A stretch of 64,000 nucleotides of DNA from Petrotoga sp. 9PW.55.5.1 (GTDB lineage Bacteria; Thermotogota; Thermotogae; Petrotogales; Petrotogaceae), in NCBI RefSeq assembly GCF_003265365.1, contig NZ_AUPM01000013.1, positions 1 to 64,000 on the forward strand, given 5' to 3'. The position numbers and the translations under genes were made by a program. Each line of letters begins with the position of its first letter. The stretch's first letter is position 1. This document shows, in pieces, positions 2,892 to 31,703 of this stretch. The notes under the pieces were generated by a model. The model searched no databases. It saw nothing but the letters and a program-made list of their open reading frames with translations, and was not told where the DNA came from.

Positions 2892-4481
2892 CTAATTTTT
2901 TTTGTTTTTTTCGACTTCTTCAATAAAATTTTTGAAGATAGGATGGGGTTCTCCTACTTTTGTTTTAAACTCTGGATGGTATTGTATTCCAACATAAAAA
3001 GGATGGTCTGATAACTCTACTGCTTCTACAAAATCTGTCATTGCAGAAATAGTTAGTTTGTTTGGAGTATTATTTCCTTTTTCAAACATATCCTCAAACA
3101 TTTTATAATTTACTTCGTATCTATGTCGATGCCTTTCAAAAATTTCTTTTTTATCTTTATAAATCTTACTAAGTTTCGTGTTGGGTATAATATCTATTTT
3201 TTGGGAACCTAATCTCATAGTTCCTCCAAGATTAAGGCTCTTTTTTTGCTCTTCCATTAAATCAATAACAGGGTAAGGAGTTTTTGGATCGAACTCCGTA
3301 GAATTTGAATCATCATATTTAAGGACATTTCGTGCAAATTCTATAACCATCAACTGCATTCCCAAGCATATTCCTAAAAGGGGCACCTTATTTTCTCTAG
3401 CATATTCTATAGCTTTGATCTTACCTTCAACAGCCCTTCTTCCAAAGCCCCCAGGAATTATGATCCCTTGATATTTTGATAAAAGTATATTCAATTCATC
3501 TTCGTTCATTTCTTCAAGTTCTTCTGCATTGATTAATTCCGGTCTATTAACACCACTTAAAAAAATACTTTCCATGATGCTTTTGTAAGCATCGTCTGTT
3601 CCTAAATACTTAGAAATCATGGCAATTTTTAAATTTTTAAAAGTTTTTGGGCATTTCCACATAAAAGGATTATTATCATTCGAAAGTGTTAATTCAAGCT
3701 TTTTAGAGATTAATTTATGAATGCTTTTTTCATATAATATTTTGGGGACCTCATATACATTGCTTAGATCGGGGAGATTAACTACGTAATCAGATGGTAC
3801 TCCTCCAAAAAGAGCAATCTTCTCAAGACTGGATGGATCAATTTCTTTTTCGGTTCTTACTAAAAGCATGTCTGGTTGTATTCCAATTCTTCTTAATAAT
3901 TGCACTGATTGTTGTGTTGGTTTCGTTTTAAACTCGTTTGTAACATGCAAATATGGAACGAAAGTCACATGTATAAACATGAAATTGTCTCTGCCTTTCT
4001 CAAAAGAAAGCTCTCTAACAGCTTCTAAAAAGATCTCTCCTTCAATGTCCCCTACGGTGCCCCCTATTTCAATAAGAAGAATTTCGGTATCTATCTCTTC
4101 AATTCTTTCTTTGATTCTTTCTGTAACATGTGGCACCATTTGAACGGTTGCTCCTAAATATTTTCCTTCTCTCTCTTTTTCAATAACATGTTTATATACT
4201 TGGCCAGCAGTCATATTGTTAAATTTTTTCATATCAATACCTAAAAATCTTTCATAATGGCCCAAATCTAAATCAGCTTCATAACCATCTTCTGTTACAA
4301 AAACTTCTCCATGCTGATTAGGATTCATAGTTCCAGCATCGACGTTCAAATAAGGATCTACTTTCAAGGAATTAACTTTCAATCCTAATTCTTTGATAAG
4401 TCTTCCGATTGAAGCAGAAACAACCCCTTTACCTATACCGCTTAGTACGCCTCCGGTGACTATAATGTATTTTTTCGCCAT
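2892..4481 (-). CDS. pyrG: CTP synthase
   Basis: PyrG makes CTP from UTP, ATP and glutamine. The N-terminal amidoligase domain opens with YIIVTGGVLSGIGKG (P-loop about residues 13-20). The C-terminal class I glutamine amidotransferase has GGFGRR, the nucleophile Cys in GICLGMQ (around residue 380) and the His/Glu pair in QYHPEF. The frame stays open 23 codons further upstream, but the family starts at MAKKYIIVTGG. ATG 4481 has GAAGG 7 nt upstream, so I place the start there, giving 529 residues. A hairpin followed by a T-run separates it from acpP and may tune expression. Confidence 0.96.
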   Translation of the reverse strand: MAKKYIIVTGGVLSGIGKGVVSASIGRLIKELGLKVNSLKVDPYLNVDAGTMNPNQHGEVFVTEDGYEADLDLGHYERFLGIDMKKFNNMTAGQVYKHVIEKEREGKYLGATVQMVPHVTERIKERIEEIDTEILLIEIGGTVGDIEGEIFLEAVRELSFEKGRDNFMFIHVTFVPYLHVTNEFKTKPTQQSVQLLRRIGIQPDMLLVRTEKEIDPSSLEKIALFGGVPSDYVVNLPDLSNVYEVPKILYEKSIHKLISKKLELTLSNDNNPFMWKCPKTFKNLKIAMISKYLGTDDAYKSIMESIFLSGVNRPELINAEELEEMNEDELNILLSKYQGIIIPGGFGRRAVEGKIKAIEYARENKVPLLGICLGMQLMVIEFARNVLKYDDSNSTEFDPKTPYPVIDLMEEQKKSLNLGGTMRLGSQKIDIIPNTKLSKIYKDKKEIFERHRHRYEVNYKMFEDMFEKGNNTPNKLTISAMTDFVEAVELSDHPFYVGIQYHPEFKTKVGEPHPIFKNFIEEVEKNKKN

Positions 4482-4510
4482 TGTCAATCCTTCGCTCCTT
4501 TCTAAAAAAT

Positions 4511-4546
4511 TCCTTAAAAAATAATGGGGGAGCAAAATAGCTCCCC
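4511..4546 (-). terminator. Intercistronic hairpin with T-tract between acpP and pyrG (terminator or attenuator)
   Basis: On the minus strand GGGGAGC, loop TATTTT, GCTCCCC (4546-4527) is followed by CATTATTTTTT. This is a compact intrinsic terminator shape downstream of acpP and about 30 nt before the pyrG start. It could end most acpP transcripts or act as an attenuator for pyrG. Confidence 0.7.
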
Positions 4547-4562
4547 GCATTTTTAATCAAGA

Positions 4563-4820
4563 TCAGTCTTCGTCGTCGATGTTTAACTTCTCAGCAAGCA
4601 TATTAACGGCAATTTCAACCGTTTTTATTTTTTCTAATTCATCATCTTCAATAGTAACACCAAACTCTGATTCAAAAGCCATTGTTAAATCTACTAACTC
4701 TAAAGAATCTGCATCTAAATCATCTGTAAATGATGCATCTAAAGTAACCTCATTTTCGTCAACACTCAAAGTATCTACTATTACTTCCTTTACCTTTTGG
4801 AATAATTCATCTTTTGTCAT
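4563..4820 (-). CDS. acpP: Acyl carrier protein
   Basis: The 85-residue acidic protein carries acyl chains in fatty acid synthesis. The phosphopantetheine site is Ser39 in the DADSLELVDL motif, and the helix II/III region (FGVTIEDDELEKIKTV) is typical. ATG 4820 follows AAAGGAGG at ideal spacing. It is the first gene after the consensus promoter at 4898-4926. The enzyme that adds its prosthetic group, acpS, is at 19298 in the same window. Confidence 0.97.
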   Translation of the reverse strand: MTKDELFQKVKEVIVDTLSVDENEVTLDASFTDDLDADSLELVDLTMAFESEFGVTIEDDELEKIKTVEIAVNMLAEKLNIDDED

Positions 4821-4897
4821 TTTTTTACCTCCTTTAGACTTTATCCTTTTATTTTAAATGATTCTATGAACCTTGGTCATCTATAAAATTCGTGTCA

Positions 4898-4926
4898 ATT
4901 ATAATGAGTTATTTTTGTTTTGTCAA
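4898..4926 (-). promoter_or_regulatory. Sigma-A promoter of acpP operon
   Basis: On the minus strand TTGACA (4926-4921), a 17-nt spacer and TATAAT (4903-4898) match the consensus exactly. The start codon of acpP is about 80 nt downstream. Confidence 0.85.
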
Positions 4927-5035
4927 GTTTATTATTGTCAATAAAGTAAAATATTTATGAAATTTTATTTTTTTCATGACATGATCGAAGTAGAAAGCTA
5001 TAGCTTTCCGTTGATTAAATACCTTCTTAGATATA

Positions 5036-5044
5036 TGGTATAAT
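5036..5044 (+). promoter_or_regulatory. Extended -10 promoter for the CYTH-rsmI-xse run
   Basis: TGGTATAAT fits an extended -10 (TGnTATAAT) about 34 nt before the TTG start at 5078. No good -35 lies at 16-18 nt, which the extended motif can compensate. Confidence 0.55.
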
Positions 5045-5077
5045 TAACTAGCAGATTTTTTATTAGAGGCGATTGAT

Positions 5078-5626
5078 TTGAAGATAGAAAGAGAAAAAAA
5101 GTTTCGAATTCCAGACTATTATATATTTAAAGAATTGATTTCAAGATCAAAAGATATATCGCTTATAATTCAATGGTACGATAGAAAAGGCAGAAGAACT
5201 CGATTAGAAAAGAAAAATAATAAAGAAATTTGGACTACGAACATAAAAAAAGAAATCAAAAAGGGGCTAAGAGAAGAAATAGAGTATGTAATAAATCCAG
5301 AAAAAGTTGATATTGAAGATATGAAAAATCAAAGAATGGTTATAAAAAATAGATATATACTAAATTATGACCCAGAAATTGTGGTGGATGAAATATTGAA
5401 CCCAGATAATTGTATCAACTACAAAAAAAATTTATCAGAAATACGTTATTTGCTGGAAATCGAAGAAAAATTTGAGAAAGTTGATTTAGAATCTTTTTTA
5501 AAAGATTTTTTACAAGATTTGTATTACAAATTGGAAGATTTAACATATTTAGAAGGATACAATAACTCTGATTTTGCAGGAACACACAACTGCAATTTAA
5601 AGAAGATTGTAGGAAGTAGAAAATAA
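5078..5626 (+). CDS. CYTH-like domain protein
   Basis: The 182-residue protein begins with an ExExK signature (E4, E6, K8 in IEREKKF), the hallmark of CYTH/triphosphate-tunnel proteins, which bind triphosphates or polyphosphate. A second acidic-basic strand (YLLEIEEKF) lies near residue 130. Other tunnel residues cannot be confirmed by eye, and the length is near that of a minimal CYTH fold. The start is TTG 5078 with GAGG about 9 nt upstream. It overlaps rsmI by one base (TAATG). CYTH and CHAD domains are often partners; here the CHAD protein is in the polyphosphate operon at 54932. The CYTH call rests mainly on the N-terminal motif. Confidence 0.55.
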   Translation: MKIEREKKFRIPDYYIFKELISRSKDISLIIQWYDRKGRRTRLEKKNNKEIWTTNIKKEIKKGLREEIEYVINPEKVDIEDMKNQRMVIKNRYILNYDPEIVVDEILNPDNCINYKKNLSEIRYLLEIEEKFEKVDLESFLKDFLQDLYYKLEDLTYLEGYNNSDFAGTHNCNLKKIVGSRK

Positions 5627-12525: not shown

Positions 12526-14364
12526 ATGTCACAAAATGAAGTGGCCCTTTATAAAGCCTTGAGAAACATGAATTATAAGGAATTAGAAGAATTTGCTAAA
12601 GAAATAAGAAATTATATCTTTGATGTTGTTTATAACAATAATGGTCATCTTGCTTCTAATTTAGGAATAGTAGAATTAACAATAGCTTTGTACAGGGTGT
12701 TCGATCCTTTTGAAGACGTAATTATATGGGATACAAGTCATCAATCTTATGTTCATAAATTATTGACTGGTAGATGGAAAGATTTTAAAAATATCAGGAA
12801 CACTGGTGGAATAAGCGGGTACACAAACATTTATGAATCTGAAGCGGATCGATTTGGAGCAGGACATGCCGGGACGTCAATTTCGGTTGCTTTGGGATAT
12901 GCTCTATCTGATAAAATAAAAAAAAGAAAAAGAAATATCGTTTCTATTATTGGAGACGGGGCATTGGCTTGTGGAATGGCTCTGGAATCTTTAAACCAAT
13001 TGAATTTTCAAGATGCAAAAGTAAAAATAATACTAAATGATAATAATATGTCAATTTCAAAGAGTGTAGGAACTATAGCTCAATTTTTAAACAATTTCAG
13101 GGTAAGAAAAGAATATACCCAAACCAAAGAGGTTTTGAAATCATCTTTAGAAGATTTTAATATTGGAAAAGATGTTGAAACGATTTTAAAGAAAATGAGA
13201 GATGCCCTAAAATACTCATTATATGAATCACCTGCTTCACTTTTTGAAGATATGGGTATTAAATATTATGGACCAGTCGATGGTCATAATATAAAGAAGA
13301 TGCAAGAGTTTATGGAGTTTGTAAGAGATTATGATGAAAAATCTGTATTGCTCCATGTTATTACTACAAAAGGGAAAGGTTTTGAAGAAACTGAAAAAGC
13401 CCCCACTAAGTTTCACGGTATTTCTCAAAAGCAATCACCACAAGTTTCTTATAGCAAGGTAGTTGGGCATACTTTATTGCATCTTAAAGACTACGAGTAT
13501 TTGGCTTTTACTGGAGCAATGGCAGAAGGTACGGGTCTATGTATTCTCCAAAACGTTGTTCCTGAAAAGGTTATAGATATGGGTATAACCGAGCCAAGTA
13601 TTGTAACAACTGCTTCGGCTCTTTCGTTAGGTGGTGTTTTACCAGTTGTTGATATTTATTCTACATTTATGCAAAGGGCTTTTGATTCTATAATACACGA
13701 TGCTGCACTACAAAGTATACCTATATTGTTCTTGCTTGATAGGGCTGGATTAGTAGGGGAAGATGGACCTACCCATCATGGAGTTTTCGATATTTCATAT
13801 ACCAGACTTATTCCAAACGTTGAAATATGGACTCCTATAAATGCACAAGACCTAGCTAATATGTTATATACATCGATTATAAAAGGTATCTCTAAACCTA
13901 GATTCATTCGTTTTCCAAGAGATGGGGAAAATATAGAATTACAAAGTATTATGAGTGATTTAAAACTAGTTAATAGTGAATGGAAATATTTAAAGAACTC
14001 TAATTCCGATATATATGCCTTAGGAGTGGGAACCATCTCTCAAAATGTGTATGAAGCTCTAAAAGGATATAATATAAATATTATTGGTGTAAGAAGTGTT
14101 AAACCTTTGGACCAATTTATAATGGAAGAGTTGAAAGAAAAAGCTAAGTATATTTTTGTATATGAAGAAGGCAGTTTAAAAGGAGGATTTAACGAAGAAA
14201 TTTTTAAGTTAAAAGATAAAAATATTTTTGCATATGGAGTTAAAGATGAATTTATTTCTCATGCAAGTAGAGAAGAGCAGTTAGAAATTTGTGATCTTTC
14301 AATAAAAGCTATTAAAGAAAATTTTGAGAAAAAAGTCTCGGTTGCTAAATTGAACAAAGAATAA
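12526..14364 (+). CDS. dxs: 1-deoxy-D-xylulose-5-phosphate synthase
   Basis: Dxs condenses pyruvate with glyceraldehyde 3-phosphate to start the MEP isoprenoid pathway and also feeds thiamine and pyridoxal synthesis. The TPP-binding motif GDGALACGM ... NDNNMSIS is present (GDGALTAGM in most members), with NNGHLASNLG near the start and the transketolase-like domains LDRAGLVGEDGPTHHG and VRSVKPLDQ later. Length 612 is typical. ATG 12526 is the only reasonable start codon, yet its ribosome site is 35 nt away with a hairpin between. No upstream in-frame ATG, GTG or TTG exists in the spacer. Confidence 0.95.
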   Translation: MSQNEVALYKALRNMNYKELEEFAKEIRNYIFDVVYNNNGHLASNLGIVELTIALYRVFDPFEDVIIWDTSHQSYVHKLLTGRWKDFKNIRNTGGISGYTNIYESEADRFGAGHAGTSISVALGYALSDKIKKRKRNIVSIIGDGALACGMALESLNQLNFQDAKVKIILNDNNMSISKSVGTIAQFLNNFRVRKEYTQTKEVLKSSLEDFNIGKDVETILKKMRDALKYSLYESPASLFEDMGIKYYGPVDGHNIKKMQEFMEFVRDYDEKSVLLHVITTKGKGFEETEKAPTKFHGISQKQSPQVSYSKVVGHTLLHLKDYEYLAFTGAMAEGTGLCILQNVVPEKVIDMGITEPSIVTTASALSLGGVLPVVDIYSTFMQRAFDSIIHDAALQSIPILFLLDRAGLVGEDGPTHHGVFDISYTRLIPNVEIWTPINAQDLANMLYTSIIKGISKPRFIRFPRDGENIELQSIMSDLKLVNSEWKYLKNSNSDIYALGVGTISQNVYEALKGYNINIIGVRSVKPLDQFIMEELKEKAKYIFVYEEGSLKGGFNEEIFKLKDKNIFAYGVKDEFISHASREEQLEICDLSIKAIKENFEKKVSVAKLNKE

Positions 14365-14385
14365 ATAAGCGAAAAGGGGATCAGG

Positions 14386-14892
14386 ATGATGTCTTTTAAT
14401 AAATTTTTTCTAATTTTTTCTTTTTTTCTAATTATAACTAGTACCATTTATTCGTTTGAATTACTTGTAAACCCATCTTATTCATCAACGTTGAATTCAA
14501 ATTCCACAAATAATTATGATTACGTTGGGGGAAGGGTTTCTTTTCTTATTCCTACCGAAGATAGTGGAGAAATATCTTATGGACCTTACATAGGATTTTA
14601 TTATAATTATAAATTAATAGAAAACGGAATAGTTTCTGAGGATATGGGAGTTTCATTAGGATTGAATATGAAATACAACACTAATATTATAGGTGACTTA
14701 GGATTTATAGTCAACGCTTATGGAGGCGTTCACACAGAAGATTCATTTGAAAGTTTCAAAACAGAAATATTGGTCAACGGAGGAATTAGCTACAACATTC
14801 TTATTTTATCTGTTGGTTATGAAACGAGATATTATGAAGATTTAACGGTTAATTATATTCCGATATCATTGGGAGTGAGTTTTAAATTTTAG
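14386..14892 (+). CDS. Small signal-peptide beta-barrel protein, outer-envelope candidate
   Basis: I do not recognise a named family. The 168-residue protein has a signal peptide (about 1-23, FFLIFSFFLIITSTIYS) followed by alternating strands rich in Y, G and S, for example GPYIGFYYNYKL and GISYNILILSVGYETRYY. It ends in SLGVSFKF with the terminal Phe typical of outer-membrane barrels. Predicted strand number fits a small 8-strand barrel. It is inserted between dxs and mutS2 and overlaps the proposed mutS2 start by 7 nt. The AGGGGAT ribosome site fits ATG 14386 or 14389. Confidence 0.55.
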   Translation: MMSFNKFFLIFSFFLIITSTIYSFELLVNPSYSSTLNSNSTNNYDYVGGRVSFLIPTEDSGEISYGPYIGFYYNYKLIENGIVSEDMGVSLGLNMKYNTNIIGDLGFIVNAYGGVHTEDSFESFKTEILVNGGISYNILILSVGYETRYYEDLTVNYIPISLGVSFKF

Positions 14893-17219
14893 ATAAGACT
14901 TATAAAGATTTAGAAATACAGAAAGTAATAAATTTAATTACTTCATTTAGTCATACAGATTATGGGAAGGAATTTTTGTTACAAAATACAAAAATGTATA
15001 TGGATTATAGCAAATTAGATCGAGAAATTAACGTTTCTCGAGCTTTTTTTGATATGGTTTTAAAAGATGAGATAAAAGATCTATATGGTATGGCTTTTAT
15101 AAATAATATACTAGAGAAAATCGAGAAAAAAGAAATTATTACAGGGGTAGAATTTAGAAAAATAGGAATGTTTTTGGCAGAAGGAAATTCTATATTTAAA
15201 TATTACAGTGAAAAGATAGAGTTTTTAGTTGAGGAACTTAACCATTTTAACCCTTTAATTTATCTAAAAGATAAGATATTTAAAACTTTTTCCGATGATG
15301 GAGAAATCAAAGATACAGCAACGGTGGAGTTGAAAAATATTAGAAATGAGATTAATAATGTAAAAAGCCATATAAGCTCAGAATTTAACAGGATTAAAAA
15401 TAGATATTTAAAATACCTTTCTATAGATAAACCTATAGAGAGAAATAGTAGGGTGTGTGTAGCTTTAAAAAGTGAAAACAGACAGATTTTGAAAGGAATT
15501 GTTGTAGGGAAATCTGATTCTGGAGCGACCATATTTATAGAACCAGAAAGTATACTTATTTTAAATGATAAATTAATAGATTTGATTTCAAAAGAAAAAA
15601 CAGAAATAAATAAAATCCTATCTATTTTAACTTTTGAAATACAAAAAAACATTGACAAATTAAAAGAAAACGTTAAAATCATAGGATATATAGATTCTAA
15701 TATTGCTAAAGCTAGATATGCTCAGCAAATGCAAGGTATTTTTATTAAACCTTCCAAAAAAAGAGAGATATTACTTAAAGAATTAAAACATCCTTTAATA
15801 TCAAAAGAAAAAGTGATCCCAATAGATGTGAAATTAGATAAAAATGGTATGATTATAACAGGTCCAAATACTGGAGGGAAAACTGTATCTTTGAAATCTA
15901 TAGGTCTTGCTTTTTTTATGGCACATGCTGGACTTCCAGTTTTGGTTTTAAAAGGTGAAGTACCTCGAATAAAAGAAATATATACTGATATAGGTGATGA
16001 ACAAGATATATCCCAAAATCTTAGTACTTTTTCTTCGCATCTTGTAAATTTGAAATCTATACTAGAAAATGTTGATGAAGATTCTGTTGTATTAATAGAT
16101 GAATTAGGTACAGGAACCGATCCTATAGAAGGGGCTTCTCTGAGTAAAGCTATAATAAAATTTTTATTAACTAAAGATACTAGGATATTTGCTACATCAC
16201 ATCTTTCTGAAATCAAAGCTTATTCATTAGAAGAAGATCGATTAATTTCTGCTTCTATGTCTTTTGATTTAGAAACACTTCAACCTACATACAGGCTTAT
16301 GGTTGGAGTTCCAGGAGCTTCTCATGCTATAGAGATTGCAGAAAAGTTAGGAATAAAATCTGAAATAATTGAAGAAGCAAGGAGAAATCTAAATAAAGAC
16401 TTTGCAAATAATGAAAAGATATTATATAGTATATCTAGACTTCATAAAGAATACGAGGAAAGAAAAGAAAGAATTAGAAAGAATGAAAAAGAAATAGCTG
16501 AGTTAAAAAGCGAATATCAGACAAAACTTCAAAAATTAAAAGAAAAAGAAATAGAGAAATTAGACTCAGAAATTGATCAACTAAAAGCTCAAGTTAAAAG
16601 TCTTAAAAAACAGATACAGGAATTGTTAGAAATTCTGAATTTTAAAAAAGAGGATTTGAATCCTGAAGATCTCAAAAATATGTTAAAAAAATCTGAAGAA
16701 ATATCCAAAAAACTCTCTGATACTGAAAAATTAATTGAACAAAAACAAAATAAGAAAAAAAAAGCAAATATTTTCTTGAAAGAAGGAATGAAGGTAAAAG
16801 TTCCTGGAAATATGGAAGGCATAGTAAAGAGTATAAATCAATCTAAAATAACTGTTCAAATAAATGATTCTCCAATAGAAATAACTTACAGCCCCTTAGA
16901 AATTGAACCCTTAATAACTCATAAAGAAGACAAAAATAATAAAAAAGAGATTAATGTTAGAATAAATCAAAAAAAAGATATAAAACCTGAAATAGATATA
17001 AGAGGATTTTCTGTGAATGAAGCTATACCAGAGATCGAGAAATTTATTTCAGATTTGATGAGTGCTGGAATTAAAGAAGGACGAATTATTCATGGCAAAG
17101 GAACTGGTAAGTTGGCTGAAGGTGTTTGGGATTTTTTAAGAAAATCTCATTTAATCAAAGATTTCAAAATAGCTAAAACAGAGGAAGGCGGAACAGGAGC
17201 AACTATTATAGAAGTTTGA
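14886..17219 (+). CDS. mutS2: Endonuclease MutS2
   Basis: MutS2 combines a MutS-like core and ABC ATPase with a C-terminal Smr nuclease domain; it suppresses recombination or rescues collided ribosomes, depending on species. Walker A is GPNTGGKT, Walker B is VLIDELGTGTDP, and the Smr domain holds DIRGFSVNEA ... IIHGKGTGKL at the end. The first TTG (14976) would cut off family-like N-terminal sequence. Reading from ATT 14886 restores LDKTYKDLEIQKVI and LITSFSHTDYGKEFLL, a normal MutS2 N-terminus, giving 777 residues. GGGAGTG sits 8 nt before ATT and there is no ATG/GTG/TTG in between, so an AUU start is proposed. It overlaps the previous stop by 7 nt. The N-terminal homology is solid; the exact start codon is inference. 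Confidence 0.9.
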   Translation: MLDKTYKDLEIQKVINLITSFSHTDYGKEFLLQNTKMYMDYSKLDREINVSRAFFDMVLKDEIKDLYGMAFINNILEKIEKKEIITGVEFRKIGMFLAEGNSIFKYYSEKIEFLVEELNHFNPLIYLKDKIFKTFSDDGEIKDTATVELKNIRNEINNVKSHISSEFNRIKNRYLKYLSIDKPIERNSRVCVALKSENRQILKGIVVGKSDSGATIFIEPESILILNDKLIDLISKEKTEINKILSILTFEIQKNIDKLKENVKIIGYIDSNIAKARYAQQMQGIFIKPSKKREILLKELKHPLISKEKVIPIDVKLDKNGMIITGPNTGGKTVSLKSIGLAFFMAHAGLPVLVLKGEVPRIKEIYTDIGDEQDISQNLSTFSSHLVNLKSILENVDEDSVVLIDELGTGTDPIEGASLSKAIIKFLLTKDTRIFATSHLSEIKAYSLEEDRLISASMSFDLETLQPTYRLMVGVPGASHAIEIAEKLGIKSEIIEEARRNLNKDFANNEKILYSISRLHKEYEERKERIRKNEKEIAELKSEYQTKLQKLKEKEIEKLDSEIDQLKAQVKSLKKQIQELLEILNFKKEDLNPEDLKNMLKKSEEISKKLSDTEKLIEQKQNKKKKANIFLKEGMKVKVPGNMEGIVKSINQSKITVQINDSPIEITYSPLEIEPLITHKEDKNNKKEINVRINQKKDIKPEIDIRGFSVNEAIPEIEKFISDLMSAGIKEGRIIHGKGTGKLAEGVWDFLRKSHLIKDFKIAKTEEGGTGATIIEV

Positions 17220-26045: not shown

Positions 26046-26420
26046 ATGAAAAGTACTAAAGCCAGAAAAGATATTTTGGAAATATTAGAAAGATACGATT
26101 TCCCTCTAAATGCTGAAGAAGTTTATGAAATATTGGATGAAGATTACGACAAATCAACCATCTATAGAAACCTTAAAAAATTTGAAAAAGATGGAACGAT
26201 AAAATCTATTGTTTTTTCAGATAAAATTAAATATTTTTACAAAATAGAGGGACACTTTCATTTTATTTACTGTATTAAATGTAAGAAGTTCGAAAAGTTT
26301 GATATTTGTTATTCTGAATCAATGAGTCAATACTTAAAAGAAAAGTTAGGTTACCAAATTATCAGTCACACATTATATTTTGAAGGAATATGCAAAGATT
26401 GTCAAAAAAGTAGTTCATAA
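26046..26420 (+). CDS. zur: Fur-family metalloregulator, probably Zur
   Basis: The 124-residue protein has a Fur-type winged helix (residues 1-70, STIYRNLKKFEKDG recognition helix) and a metal-binding dimerisation domain with HFHFIYC and two CxxC pairs (CIKC, CKDC) for structural zinc. It leads an operon with a ZnuACB-type transporter whose binding protein has a His-rich loop, so zinc sensing is more likely than iron. It is expected to bind the dyad at 25989 with zinc and repress itself and the transporter. The start ATG 26046 has AGGAG upstream. Fur or manganese specificity cannot be excluded. Confidence 0.85.
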   Translation: MKSTKARKDILEILERYDFPLNAEEVYEILDEDYDKSTIYRNLKKFEKDGTIKSIVFSDKIKYFYKIEGHFHFIYCIKCKKFEKFDICYSESMSQYLKEKLGYQIISHTLYFEGICKDCQKSSS

Positions 26421-26455
26421 AATTTAAAATAAAGCAGATGAAGGAGGATAATAAG

Positions 26456-27367
26456 ATGAAAAAATTTTCCGTTATTTTATTATTATTTTTAGTTTCTGTT
26501 GTGACTTTTACGCTAGATGTTTCAACTTCTATATTGCCGTATTACTATATAAGCAAGGAAATTGTTGGAGAAAAGGGAAATGTAAATTTGATAGTTCCTC
26601 CTGGTAAAAGCCCCCACACTTATTCTTTAACTCCAAAGGAATTGATTCCTATATATGATTCCGATGTTCTTATTATAAATGGAATGGGGTTAGAAGTATT
26701 TATTTCTAAGTTATCAGATAATCTGTATAAAGAAGGATTAAAAATAGTAGAAGTTTCGAGTTATATACCAAAAGAAGAGTTTATTTTTTCAAACCATTCT
26801 CATGAAGACGACGACGAACACGAAACTGGTCACAAAGATGATGAAGTATTTGGTTATGATCCACATATTTGGCTTGATCCTTATTTGATGTATAATTATG
26901 TAATACCCTCTCTGACTGAAGAATTTTCTAAATTAGATCCAACAAGTAAAGAATTTTATGAACAAAACGCTCAAAATTTAATTAATAGATTAAAATTACT
27001 TGATAAATATTTAAAAGAGAAGGCTAAAACGATTTCTGGATCAATTTTTACAGTACATAATGCTTTTGAATATTTCGCAAAAAGATATGACATTCCTATA
27101 ATCGGAGTATTACAGATTTCCCCTGGTGTTGATCCTACCCCAAAACAGATAATTGAGTTAACTGAGTTGGCTAATAAAGAGGATGTTAAAGCTATTTTTA
27201 ATGAACCGCAGCTTAGTGATAGGGCAGTAAATACTCTTGCAAAAAGTTTAAATTTAAGAACAGGAGTGTTGGATCCTTTAGGTAGTAATGAAAATATTAT
27301 TGATTTAGAATCTTTGTATTTATATAATTTATACGAGATAATCCGAGTTGTTAACTATGAAAAGTAA
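26456..27367 (+). CDS. znuA: Zinc ABC transporter substrate-binding protein
   Basis: This is a cluster A-I metal-binding protein: signal peptide (1-20), first metal His in the SPHTY motif (about residue 54), a His/Asp-rich loop (about 113-128, HSHEDDDEHETGH), then DPHIWLDP (His about 137) and a final aspartate in the LDPLG region. The His-rich loop is typical of zinc rather than manganese members. No lipobox Cys is visible. AAGGAGG lies 8 nt before ATG 26456, so the earlier ATG at 26438 is rejected. Confidence 0.92.
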   Translation: MKKFSVILLLFLVSVVTFTLDVSTSILPYYYISKEIVGEKGNVNLIVPPGKSPHTYSLTPKELIPIYDSDVLIINGMGLEVFISKLSDNLYKEGLKIVEVSSYIPKEEFIFSNHSHEDDDEHETGHKDDEVFGYDPHIWLDPYLMYNYVIPSLTEEFSKLDPTSKEFYEQNAQNLINRLKLLDKYLKEKAKTISGSIFTVHNAFEYFAKRYDIPIIGVLQISPGVDPTPKQIIELTELANKEDVKAIFNEPQLSDRAVNTLAKSLNLRTGVLDPLGSNENIIDLESLYLYNLYEIIRVVNYEK

Positions 27368-28106
27368 TCCACTAATTTCTGTAAGAAATCTAAATTATAC
27401 AGCGGAGAACAACCATATATTGATGGACATTTCTTTTGATATATATAGAAAAGATTTTGTAGGCATCATTGGTCCTAATGGAGCTGGTAAATCTACTTTG
27501 GTTAAAATTTTAGTAGGAGAGATTGAAAATTACAGAGGTAAGCTTGAGATAAATGGTGAAATTGGATATGTACCTCAATACGAGGAAAAAGAAAAAGATT
27601 TCCCTATAAAGGCATATGAAGTAGCTTTAATGGGCTTATATAAAGAAGTTGGATTGTTTAAAAGGTTCAAAAAAGAACATTACCAAAAAGTTAGAGAGGT
27701 TTTCGATCTCTTAAAGATTGAGAAATTATACGATAGGCAGGTACAAAAATTATCAGGTGGAGAATATAGAAGATTGATGGTTGCCAGGGCTTTGGTTTCT
27801 AATCCTGATATACTTATTTTAGATGAACCCGAGGCAAATATCGATAAAGCAGGCCAAAGTATTTTATATGACACACTCAAAAAAATTAAAAATAACATGA
27901 ATATAAGTATAATTCTTGTGAGCCATGATTTAAACGTTGTTTTTAAAGAAACAAACAAAGTTATGTGTATGAATAAAACTTTACATTGCCACAAAAATAC
28001 AGCTGATCTAAGTATAGAAGACTTAAAAACTTTGTATTCAAAAGATTTTGAACTATTTATACATATAAATGAAAAGATGAAGGTAGTGAGCAACAAAGAT
28101 GATTGA
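27357..28106 (+). CDS. znuC: Zinc ABC transporter ATP-binding protein
   Basis: This ABC ATPase has Walker A GPNGAGKST, Q-loop YVPQYEE, signature LSGGEYRR, Walker B ILILDEPEA and H-loop VSHD. It energises uptake through ZnuB. ATG 27357 overlaps the znuA end by 11 nt; TTG 27348 is a less likely alternative. It overlaps znuB by 8 nt. Confidence 0.92.
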   Translation: MKSNPLISVRNLNYTAENNHILMDISFDIYRKDFVGIIGPNGAGKSTLVKILVGEIENYRGKLEINGEIGYVPQYEEKEKDFPIKAYEVALMGLYKEVGLFKRFKKEHYQKVREVFDLLKIEKLYDRQVQKLSGGEYRRLMVARALVSNPDILILDEPEANIDKAGQSILYDTLKKIKNNMNISIILVSHDLNVVFKETNKVMCMNKTLHCHKNTADLSIEDLKTLYSKDFELFIHINEKMKVVSNKDD

Positions 28107-28914
28107 TATTTTTTACTATCCTTTTATGAGGTATGCGTTGTTTGGAGCGATTCTTTCAGGTTTTGGAAGTGCTTTACTTTCAAATTTTATAGTTCTAAAA
28201 AAAATGGAGTTTATAAGTGACGGAGCAGCACATATTGCTTTTGGAGCTATTGCTCTGGCTTTGTTTTTGGGAATTAATATGAATCTTTTATCGATAATCG
28301 TTGCATTAGTTTTTGCAATATCTATACATTATATGAGTAAGCAAGAAAAGATACAAGAAAGCAGCATTATTGGAATGTTGCTTTCTCTTTCAATGGCCAC
28401 AGGCATAATTCTACTTTCTTTTGTCAAAGGGTATGTCCCGGAAGTTGAAAGTTTTTTGTTTGGAGATATTCTTATGATCACTTTGGAAGATTTAATATTA
28501 TTAAGTATCTCTGATATATTTATCTTATTTTTTATAATCCTTTTTAATAAAGAGCTAAAATATTATGCCTACAATCAAAAATTGAGCAAAATATTTGGTG
28601 TTCCAACTAATATAATAAACTTGATATTTCTATCTATAACTTCTGTTACAATCGTTTTATCGGTTAAAATAGTTGGCATTATACTGATAACATCTTTGCT
28701 TATAACTCCTGGAGTAATTGCAAAACTTTTTTCAAAAAGTATAAACCAAATGATATTAATATCAGTAATAGTAGGTGTGAGTGCCTCAGTTTTTGGTATA
28801 ATTTCTTCTTATTATCTAAATATTCCATCAGGACCAATGATTGTAGTAACTTTATTTACAGTATTTTTAATCTCATATGGTATAAAAAGGTTATCTTTTG
28901 GGGAAAATGATTAA
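28099..28914 (+). CDS. znuB: Zinc ABC transporter permease
   Basis: The 271-residue ABC-3 family permease has about eight hydrophobic helices. SDGAAHIAFGAIAL near residue 36 and the conserved LLITPGVIAKL region late in the chain are family landmarks. It ends the zur-znuACB operon. Its stop codon overlaps the stop of the convergent B12 protein gene (4 nt shared), leaving no room for a separate terminator. Confidence 0.92.
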   Translation: MIDIFYYPFMRYALFGAILSGFGSALLSNFIVLKKMEFISDGAAHIAFGAIALALFLGINMNLLSIIVALVFAISIHYMSKQEKIQESSIIGMLLSLSMATGIILLSFVKGYVPEVESFLFGDILMITLEDLILLSISDIFILFFIILFNKELKYYAYNQKLSKIFGVPTNIINLIFLSITSVTIVLSVKIVGIILITSLLITPGVIAKLFSKSINQMILISVIVGVSASVFGIISSYYLNIPSGPMIVVTLFTVFLISYGIKRLSFGEND

Positions 28915-30530
28915 ATGTTTTCTAATCTTTCTTTTTCTCTTATTACACGTCCATTTTCGTCAACTATTTCGTAGGCTCCATTTATTAGATCTACTTTTAT
29001 TTCACCTTTAGCAACGCTATTTCCTTGTAAACCAGTGGCATCTAAAATGCCTTTTTTAACGGCTAAATAAAGAGTTTCGGGATCAATTAAAGGATCCTTT
29101 GCATTGGAAGAAAAATTTTTAATTTTATCAATAATTGTCATAGCCTCTTCTTTAAGATATGATACTCTTTCTTTTATAACAGGATCACTTAAAAAATCTG
29201 GTAACCCTTGATTCGCTAGAGTGTTTGCCCTTTTTACCATTTTTACACTTTCAATTATTTCTTTAGATGTTGCTCTTCTCATAGCTTCGCAATATGAAAC
29301 AACGTGTATTATATGGGGTTGTAAGTACGATGCATAAAACATTGAAGAAACTAACTGTCCAATCGCACTATTTGGATCTGCGGGAAATGAAAGTAGTCCT
29401 GTTCTTACCATTCTATAGGGAATGAATGTTTCATCTTTAAGAGATTCTACCAATTCTAATTTTGCAATAGCTTTTGCTATATCCATCTTTGGTGAAAGTT
29501 TTGGAGGGGTATTCATCATGTATTGTTGGATATACCATCTGACCCCTATTTTTTTTGCTACATATGCTGCTAGGTATGCAGTTGCAACGGTCAAACTGTC
29601 GTGTGCGTATCTTAACTCCCATTGATGAGAATCGTTAATCTCGACAGGGACTTTGTTTTCCGCATTCCACTTTATACCTTCCATATTTTCTTTTATTGCA
29701 TCAAGCAAATTTCTTTCAGATCTTCTATCTAATTCGGAGTACCAAAAAATTGGTATTGCAGCCCATGCGTTGTTAATACTTTCTTTTAGAAGTTTTGAAA
29801 ACTCTAATATATGTGTTGTACCTGAATAACATCTAACTAAAGGATAGTTCCCTCTTCTACTTGCTTTGTACATCTCAATGAAATCATTTTTGGTTCGTAG
29901 GGGAGCCCCTCCAGCCCCGTCTTGTTTATGATCCATTTTATCTTGATCAAAGAAGTGTTGTTGACAATTTTGATCAGGGGCTAAAGATATTATATCCAAA
30001 AGTTCTGATTCCGCTAATTTTTCTATTTCTACTATAGTTTCCTCGACAGTTTGTAAACCAATATGATGTCTAATTAAAGGGTAAGGAGATTTAAAATTTA
30101 TTCTTTCAGATAAACTTTGAGGGTAATTTATCGTTTCGTCTTCTTTTAATTTTCCTCTTAGGAACAAAACGATTTCATCTTCCTCTTCTGAACCATCGAA
30201 AACTTTTTGAAAAAAATTAGATTTTCTTGCTATTTCTGAAGTTTCTACAGTTCCACCAAAAATGAATTTTAAATTTTTAAAGTCAGGAATATTTTCAATC
30301 CTATTGATAAATTCCTTTAAGAGCTTTTCAAAAGATTCTTCTCCCAAACGATAACTTATAGACACAATCTCAGGCCTTTCTTCTTCTATCTTTTTTATTA
30401 ATAAATCCATGGGAACAGCACTTCCCAAATTGATAACAACATAGCCTTCTTTTCTTGCTAAATTCAAAAAATTAAAAAGGCCGGCGGTATGAACATCGCT
30501 TCCGATTGATGCACCTAAGATCTTTTTCAT
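28911..30530 (-). CDS. Cobalamin-binding mutase-like protein of unknown reaction
   Basis: The N-terminal 130 residues form a B12-binding Rossmann domain with the base-off DxHxxG motif (D12, H14, G17 in SDVHTAGL), so cobalt would be ligated by His14. The remaining 410 residues look like a TIM-barrel mutase domain with GGAPLRTKNDF, RCYSGTTHI and SHQWELRYAHDS segments. It is loosely reminiscent of glutamate mutase E and related carbon-skeleton mutases, but does not match a family I can name. ATG 30530 shares one base with the upstream stop (TGATG), after GAGGAGG; TTG 30533 is possible. It is translationally coupled to an opine-dehydrogenase-family gene, so the pair probably act on an amino-acid derivative. 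No G-protein chaperone or cobalamin riboswitch is nearby. Confidence 0.7.
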   Translation of the reverse strand: MKKILGASIGSDVHTAGLFNFLNLARKEGYVVINLGSAVPMDLLIKKIEEERPEIVSISYRLGEESFEKLLKEFINRIENIPDFKNLKFIFGGTVETSEIARKSNFFQKVFDGSEEEDEIVLFLRGKLKEDETINYPQSLSERINFKSPYPLIRHHIGLQTVEETIVEIEKLAESELLDIISLAPDQNCQQHFFDQDKMDHKQDGAGGAPLRTKNDFIEMYKASRRGNYPLVRCYSGTTHILEFSKLLKESINNAWAAIPIFWYSELDRRSERNLLDAIKENMEGIKWNAENKVPVEINDSHQWELRYAHDSLTVATAYLAAYVAKKIGVRWYIQQYMMNTPPKLSPKMDIAKAIAKLELVESLKDETFIPYRMVRTGLLSFPADPNSAIGQLVSSMFYASYLQPHIIHVVSYCEAMRRATSKEIIESVKMVKRANTLANQGLPDFLSDPVIKERVSYLKEEAMTIIDKIKNFSSNAKDPLIDPETLYLAVKKGILDATGLQGNSVAKGEIKVDLINGAYEIVDENGRVIREKERLENI

Positions 30531-31612
30531 CAATCTTCCTCCTCAACGTATCTTAATATATCTTCTATGCTTTTCCCTTCTAATCCTAAATCCTTTACGG
30601 TTCTTCCTTCCTTCCAAAAATTTTTGTCCATCATTATATTAGCAAGATTTATTATTGAATCAATTGTTTTTGTCTTTACTCCGTATTCTTCACCAAAAGA
30701 GGATATAGGAACAAGACTCATTGGTAGATCTTCTAATATATATCTATTATTGAGTGTTGGCGGAGCGTATATTCCCCTGTATCCAACGTTGTTTCTTATG
30801 GCTTCGTACAAATTACTTCCAGTAACATCGTAAGCATAATTGAGCCATTCTTTGGCGGTCATAGGTACAACATTAAAAAGTTTCATAACATTGCAACGCT
30901 CTTCATCAATTTTTTCTAAAATTTTTGCAACCGAAGGTGAAATACCTTCAAAATAGAATTCAAACTTTCCAGCAGTAGTTTCTACCCTTGCTGAATTTAA
31001 TATCAAAGTAGCGGGATGAAATACCACACCAATATTATTAAAACTTGTATAAATGATGTTCTTAACAATGTTAAACTCAGGCATAACATTGCATAACACT
31101 TCTTCAAGTTCTGAATTTCTTGTAGCTGGCAGTGCAGAAACAGGGACAGCATTTTTAATCCTAAACACTTTTGCAACACCAGGGTTTGACATTCTCGAAG
31201 CAAAGATAAAAGTTTGAGCTTCAGCTATTATTACATCTTTTTCTGTGCCTTCTTCTTTTAAGACTTTTTTGAATTCCAATGCCCCACCCGTTCTTCCAGG
31301 ATTCAAAACAACTATCTGTCCATCTTCTAGAAAAGGTGCCATCTTTCTAGCTATTTCTTTGTGAGCAAAGGCTGGAACAACAACCATTATAAGTTTTCTC
31401 CCTTTTATAGCTTCTTCCATATTTGTAGTTGCAAAAGTAACACTATATTCTCCTTCTACTTGTCCTTCTATTCTTATTGAGTGAGAATCTATTATAGGGG
31501 AGATTCTTCTTTTAGATCTATTATAAAGTGCAACATCGAAACCCTTCATAGCTAAATATCCAGCCAAAGCTTGTCCACCATTACCCGCTCCAACGACTGT
31601 AATCTTAATCAT
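30530..31612 (-). CDS. NAD/NADP octopine/nopaline dehydrogenase family protein
   Basis: The 360-residue enzyme has an N-terminal Rossmann fold with GAGNGG (8-13) and an all-helical C-terminal domain with HPATLILNSARVE, the characteristic His of this family. Opine dehydrogenases reductively condense an amino acid with a 2-oxo acid, or run the reverse reaction; many bacterial members have unknown substrates. It shares an operon with the B12 protein (TGATG junction), so it probably makes or consumes that enzyme's amino-acid substrate. ATG 31612 and TTG 31615 are both served by AAGGAGATG; ATG is preferred. Confidence 0.85.
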   Translation of the reverse strand: MIKITVVGAGNGGQALAGYLAMKGFDVALYNRSKRRISPIIDSHSIRIEGQVEGEYSVTFATTNMEEAIKGRKLIMVVVPAFAHKEIARKMAPFLEDGQIVVLNPGRTGGALEFKKVLKEEGTEKDVIIAEAQTFIFASRMSNPGVAKVFRIKNAVPVSALPATRNSELEEVLCNVMPEFNIVKNIIYTSFNNIGVVFHPATLILNSARVETTAGKFEFYFEGISPSVAKILEKIDEERCNVMKLFNVVPMTAKEWLNYAYDVTGSNLYEAIRNNVGYRGIYAPPTLNNRYILEDLPMSLVPISSFGEEYGVKTKTIDSIINLANIMMDKNFWKEGRTVKDLGLEGKSIEDILRYVEEED

Positions 31613-31703
31613 CAAGACTCATCTCCTTTAATATAGATTTTCAAATATTACTACAATATAATATATTTTACCTTAAATTTCAAAAAAATTAAAAATATTT
31701 AAC

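Follow-up and report, generated by a model that had tools for sequence, protein, structure and literature searches.

A fused B12-domain and barrel protein co-inherited with an opine-dehydrogenase-family enzyme in Thermotogota: candidate core of an amino-acid-type pathway

The window, the whole 64,000-nucleotide stretch of Petrotoga sp. 9PW.55.5.1 DNA that was analysed, holds on its minus strand a compact operon of two genes, referred to here as ODH and MUT. ODH comes first, and its stop codon shares one base with the MUT start codon in a TGATG junction; both reading frames were found on that strand where the initial annotation had described two genes joined in this way. The operon and its parts are as follows:

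31623..31627, minus strand: AGGAG, likely ribosome-binding site of ODH (from sequence)
30530..31612, minus strand: ODH, opine-dehydrogenase-family gene (PF02317, E 1.4e-44; PDB 1bg6, E 1e-79)
31016..31018, minus strand: ODH H200, equivalent of octopine dehydrogenase His212 (by alignment; invariant in 15 copies)
30728..30748, minus strand: ODH N290-R-Y-x-x-E-D296, with the equivalents of octopine dehydrogenase Arg324 and, presumably, Asp329 (by alignment)
28911..30530, minus strand: MUT, fused B12-domain/barrel mutase-like gene (domain, profile and conservation searches)
30480..30497, minus strand: DVHTAG base-off motif of MUT (D13-V-H15-T-A-G18), with H15 the expected axial ligand (by conservation)
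30240..30524, minus strand: B12-binding (Rossmann) domain of MUT, residues 4-98 (PF02310, E 9.7e-10, above cut-off)
28938..30083, minus strand: MutE-related barrel of MUT, residues 151-532 (profile-profile alignment to MutE 60-438)

The ODH product has 360 residues from its ATG, or 361 from a TTG one codon upstream at 31615. MUT has 539 residues from its ATG, and its residues are numbered by the 540-residue reading that begins at the TTG at 30533. Upstream of ODH lies a divergent neighbour resembling a small membrane permease, and an Rfam search of the window returned two tRNAs and no riboswitch. In other Petrotoga, MUT is followed by a 375-residue restriction-related gene that has no connection to the module.

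Sequence and predicted active site place ODH in the opine dehydrogenase family. It has the Rossmann and octopine_DH helical domains of that family, aligns end to end with N-(1-D-carboxylethyl)-L-norvaline dehydrogenase (1bg6), matches octopine dehydrogenase more weakly (E 2e-15), and carries both motifs on which the family had been proposed from the sequence, GAGNGG and the octopine/nopaline dehydrogenase helix HPATLILNSARVE. The aspartate of the octopine dehydrogenase relay, which we take to be Asp329, matches D296. Across 15 copies, with identities down to 34%, H200, R291 (the Arg324 equivalent), Y292, E295 and D296 are invariant, so that the family's His-Asp relay (PMC2924402) and NADH-sensing arginine are all in place. 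What sets ODH apart from the 1bg6 enzyme and octopine dehydrogenase, whose active-site His, Arg and Asp it keeps along the whole alignment, is that in Thermotogota it is always paired with MUT.

MUT begins with a B12-binding domain, and the base-off motif DxHxxG that had been noted there is present as D13, H15 and G18. H15 and G18 are invariant in 59/59 MUT copies, and in profile searches the domain lies near those of OraE, corrinoid methyltransferase proteins, MetH and MutS. The Asp of DxHxxG normally hydrogen-bonds the cobalt-ligating His. In 29 of the 59 copies this Asp (residue 13, window 30495-30497) is replaced by Cys, giving CxHxxG, and half of the MUT family would thus have an unusual axial-ligand relay. 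MUT would use adenosylcobalamin (AdoCbl), and the window's genome encodes a PduO-type adenosyltransferase. An AlphaFold model of the window's MUT, built with four relatives, reached a pLDDT of 45 and was unusable.

Which mutase does the barrel belong to? The window's MUT alone matches Pfam MutE weakly (E 0.0025), but a profile of the 59 MUT copies aligned over the entire barrel with a profile of 14 MutE relatives drawn from database sequences (E 1.4e-7 in a single comparison), and MUT relatives in 28 Thermotogota genomes pass the curated cut-off of PF06368. No profile alignment was obtained between the MUT barrel and those of KamD and OraE. In glutamate mutase, R66, R149 and E171 hold the glycyl part of the substrate, and R100 and Y177 the acrylate part (PMC9545868). 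R66 falls in a confidently aligned region, at MUT H157, and R100, which is Arg in 14/14 MutE relatives, at Q188; both replacements are invariant in 59/59 copies. The arginine claw was judged on these two positions, since MUT residues ~190-300 align unreliably with MutE, also with sub-range profiles, which leaves R149 and E171 unplaced and makes R234 a candidate only for the R149 equivalent. K326 is replaced by Val; E330, the ribose contact that has been compared with OAM Glu338 (PMC3958899), is kept as E416 in 59/59 copies. R155, R234, E298 and H303 are further invariant residues of MUT. The PLP of ornithine and lysine aminomutases is held by a Rossmann-domain lysine, named Lys629 (PMC3958899), which in the 3kow sequence lies eleven residues past the axial histidine; MUT has Ala at that position in 56/59 copies and Lys in none.

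With R66 and R100 replaced and the PLP lysine absent, MUT is neither a glutamate mutase nor a PLP-AdoCbl aminomutase, and both assignments were rejected, the first on the unkept claw, the second also on the missing KamD/OraE-type barrel alignment. On profile evidence, the barrel is remotely related, along its full length, to glutamate mutase E and not to the PLP aminomutases, and the make-up of MUT is that of a PLP-free mutase. This bears out the initial annotation, which could assign the barrel to no named mutase: the relation to glutamate mutase E is remote rather than a clear match. MUT shares with glutamate mutase (MutS and MutE) the DxHxxG B12 domain, the barrel related over its whole length, the ribose-contact Glu and the lack of PLP, but it is a single chain, whereas most MutE belong to two-chain enzymes, it has His and Gln in place of claw residues R66 and R100, and its partner is an opine dehydrogenase instead of GlmL or methylaspartate ammonia-lyase; both of the latter occur in the Peptoclostridium glutamate mutase cluster and neither adjoins MUT in the surveyed loci. 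OraE (D-ornithine 4,5-aminomutase) and KamDE (lysine 5,6-aminomutase) have a close B12 Rossmann domain, but MUT lacks their PLP-binding lysine and its loop, its barrel is unalignable with theirs by profile, and relative to OraE its B12 domain sits at the opposite end of the chain.

The two genes travel together. MUT and ODH occur in an identical set of 65 of the 103 Thermotogota genomes, a 65/65 agreement that the kinship of the genomes makes a non-independent count, and a survey of neighbourhoods, as had been suggested, found the pair conserved: the genes are side by side for 58 of 59 surveyed copies, the remaining contig starting inside ODH. The identical genome set and the adjacency together indicate that the pairing is not due to chance. 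Nor is the pair confined to close relatives of Petrotoga, for it is found across the phylum and in four Bacteroidales genomes, among them Seramator thermalis, where the genes are again adjacent. In the MUT tree and in the ODH tree alike, the Bacteroidales copies group with one genome (G007) inside Petrotogaceae with strong support, and this shared placement argues that the pair was transferred as a unit. No relatives of the module were found in the viral contigs or plasmids searched; all genome contigs were scanned with patterns tailored to the window's MUT, which distant relatives in other phyla would escape. A literature search found no paper on an opine dehydrogenase together with a cobalamin mutase.

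A third partner is often present. A D-Ala-D-Ala-ligase-like ATP-grasp protein of ~305-325 residues adjoins the pair in 34 surveyed loci, on either flank or between the two genes, and lies elsewhere in other genomes. By bit score it is found in 57 genomes, of which 54 are MUT-positive and the other three are fragmented assemblies; the 11 of 65 MUT-positive genomes that are without it comprise six Petrotoga, two other Petrotogaceae and three fragmented assemblies. Like D-alanine--D-alanine ligase (Ddl) it belongs to the ATP-grasp family and retains the omega-loop and metal-binding segments, but it lacks the N-terminal SxEREIS motif and scores under every listed curated Ddl cut-off, and the genomes that hold it encode a separate true Ddl with that motif. 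The other flanking genes vary by lineage, which argues that the trio is self-contained.

One operon exchanged its mutase. In one genome (G066; L103, 6925-8829) a divergent 634-residue MUT, 28% identical to the window's, lies within an ODH-ligase operon whose ODH is 64% identical to that of the window and whose ligase is 56% identical to the reference. This MUT retains the key residues and is 53% identical to one on a contig of the G012 assembly. Since the operon tolerated the swap, both forms of MUT probably do the same job, and this exchange and the joint transfer to Bacteroidales are natural experiments that support a functional unit. The G012 contig (contig 198, L093) carries a divergent ODH-MUT-ligase trio along with an ABC transporter and a transposase; it may be foreign to its assembly and come from another phylum, and the trio may be distributed more widely than Thermotogota.

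The best reading is that the module makes or degrades an amino-acid-derived compound. At a probability of about 0.5, we propose that the operon is the core of an amino-acid-type pathway in which MUT is an AdoCbl-dependent carbon-skeleton mutase and ODH, with the ligase where there is one, acts around it. It is from the domain make-up, homology, residue conservation, co-inheritance and operon structure that we infer the mutase chemistry, the substrate class, the order of steps and the direction that follow. MUT would be a single-chain mutase (B12 domain plus barrel) of the glutamate mutase superfamily, binding AdoCbl base-off/His-on at H15; homolysis of the Co-C bond would give the 5'-deoxyadenosyl radical, which would abstract a hydrogen from an amino-acid-like substrate, whose carbon chain would rearrange without PLP. 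Because the arginine that would meet a side-chain carboxylate is a glutamine in MUT, the side chain of the substrate, which would lack the gamma-carboxylate of glutamate, is probably non-acidic. ODH would act on the MUT product or supply the MUT substrate, using NAD(P)H to join an amino acid reductively to a 2-oxo acid (N-alkylation) or catalysing the reverse reaction, and in most genomes the ATP-grasp enzyme would probably form an amide bond. An ATP-using ligase in the module favours synthesis over breakdown. The points that count against this pathway are the structure model at pLDDT 45, the lack of the ATP-grasp partner in Petrotoga, the CxHxxG motif in 29/59 copies and the unreliable alignment of MUT ~190-300.

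The module could instead be catabolic: the cell would take up an opine or N-carboxyalkyl amino acid, ODH would split it oxidatively into a 2-oxo acid and an amino acid, and MUT would rearrange the latter for fermentation, as clostridial glutamate mutase does. The organisms are fermenters, known amino-acid mutases of this superfamily mostly serve fermentation, Petrotoga keep the pair without a ligase, and in two assemblies (L111, L113) polar amino-acid ABC transporter genes converge on the module; yet the ATP-grasp ligase in the same operon at 34 loci suits synthesis better, and across lineages the module has no linked gene for a dedicated lyase, thiolase or transporter, which leaves breakdown a doubtful though serious possibility. 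Distinctly less probable is that MUT is a corrinoid methyltransferase or another B12-binding barrel protein that methylates or demethylates the ODH substrate. Taken alone, its B12 domain matches the corrinoid proteins of methyltransferases about as well as those of mutases, but the entire barrel is homologous to MutE and retains the ribose-contact Glu, and the B12 domain begins at residue 4, leaving no room for the helical cap domain that MetH-type proteins carry. That MUT is a known enzyme whose sequence has drifted, either glutamate mutase or an ornithine/lysine-type aminomutase, seems very unlikely: remote homology to both families is there, but R66 and R100 have given way to other residues that are themselves invariant, the PLP lysine and loop are absent, the barrel is unaligned with KamD/OraE, and neither GlmL nor methylaspartate ammonia-lyase adjoins.

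A role in zinc supply was suggested by the neighbourhood in the window, where a Fur-family regulator gene is followed by ZnuA-, ZnuC- and ZnuB-like genes (26046-28914) convergent on MUT. The operon does run tail to tail into these genes, as first described, the stop codons of MUT and the znuB-like gene sharing the two bases 28912-28913, and the proximity could reflect, for example, an opine-type zinc chelator. Only three of the surveyed loci, however, the window's included and all from Petrotogaceae, have ZnuABC-like genes next to the pair, and the flanks are otherwise different; a functional link is thus extremely improbable, and a zinc-regulated metallophore cluster was rejected on the same count. 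Of the initial annotation's proposal, the conserved coupling of an unassigned B12-barrel protein to an opine-dehydrogenase-family enzyme stands, the rearrangement of an amino acid or an opine is a suggestion drawn from family membership, and the zinc connection proves local; the ATP-grasp partner had not been part of it.

A more specific version of the AdoCbl-mutase pathway proposed above would make it a B12 counterpart of the logic of pyrrolysine synthesis, which is carried out by PylBCD (PMC8225853). The mutase would convert a common amino acid with a non-acidic side chain, such as lysine or ornithine, into a branched one, and ligase and ODH would turn it into a new pseudo-dipeptide or opine in most Thermotogota, a tentative and rather unlikely scheme. 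The likeness is one of outline, a radical mutase, an ATP-dependent ligase and a dehydrogenase acting on an amino acid; PylB differs in being a radical SAM enzyme. PylC and PylD are absent among the NCBIfam matches listed for the ligase and ODH, and PylS scored above cut-off in 0/103 Thermotogota genomes, which makes the comparison an analogy only. If true, the scheme would bring a new cobalamin-dependent reaction together with a new metabolite or cell component.

To our knowledge, AdoCbl carbon-skeleton mutases are few and each defines a pathway. Given that the distributions of MUT and ODH across the phylum are the same and that the two were transferred jointly, they should share a metabolite. 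Their reaction is approachable with two or three thermophile proteins, would add to the B12-dependent reactions and could account for some of the cobalamin that these anaerobes require.

Variation within the family may bear on the substrate. A second ODH subfamily (L037-L042, families f5 and f7), 34-38% identical to the window's ODH, may mark a different one; its partners are MUT copies 46-50% identical to the window's. One genome (G029, L063) holds two copies of the MUT-ODH pair, separated by about 10 kb, at 3956-5593 and 14041-15636, and both adjoin threonine-biosynthesis-like genes (homoserine dehydrogenase, threonine synthase and homoserine kinase); other loci of its group have these threonine-type neighbours once.
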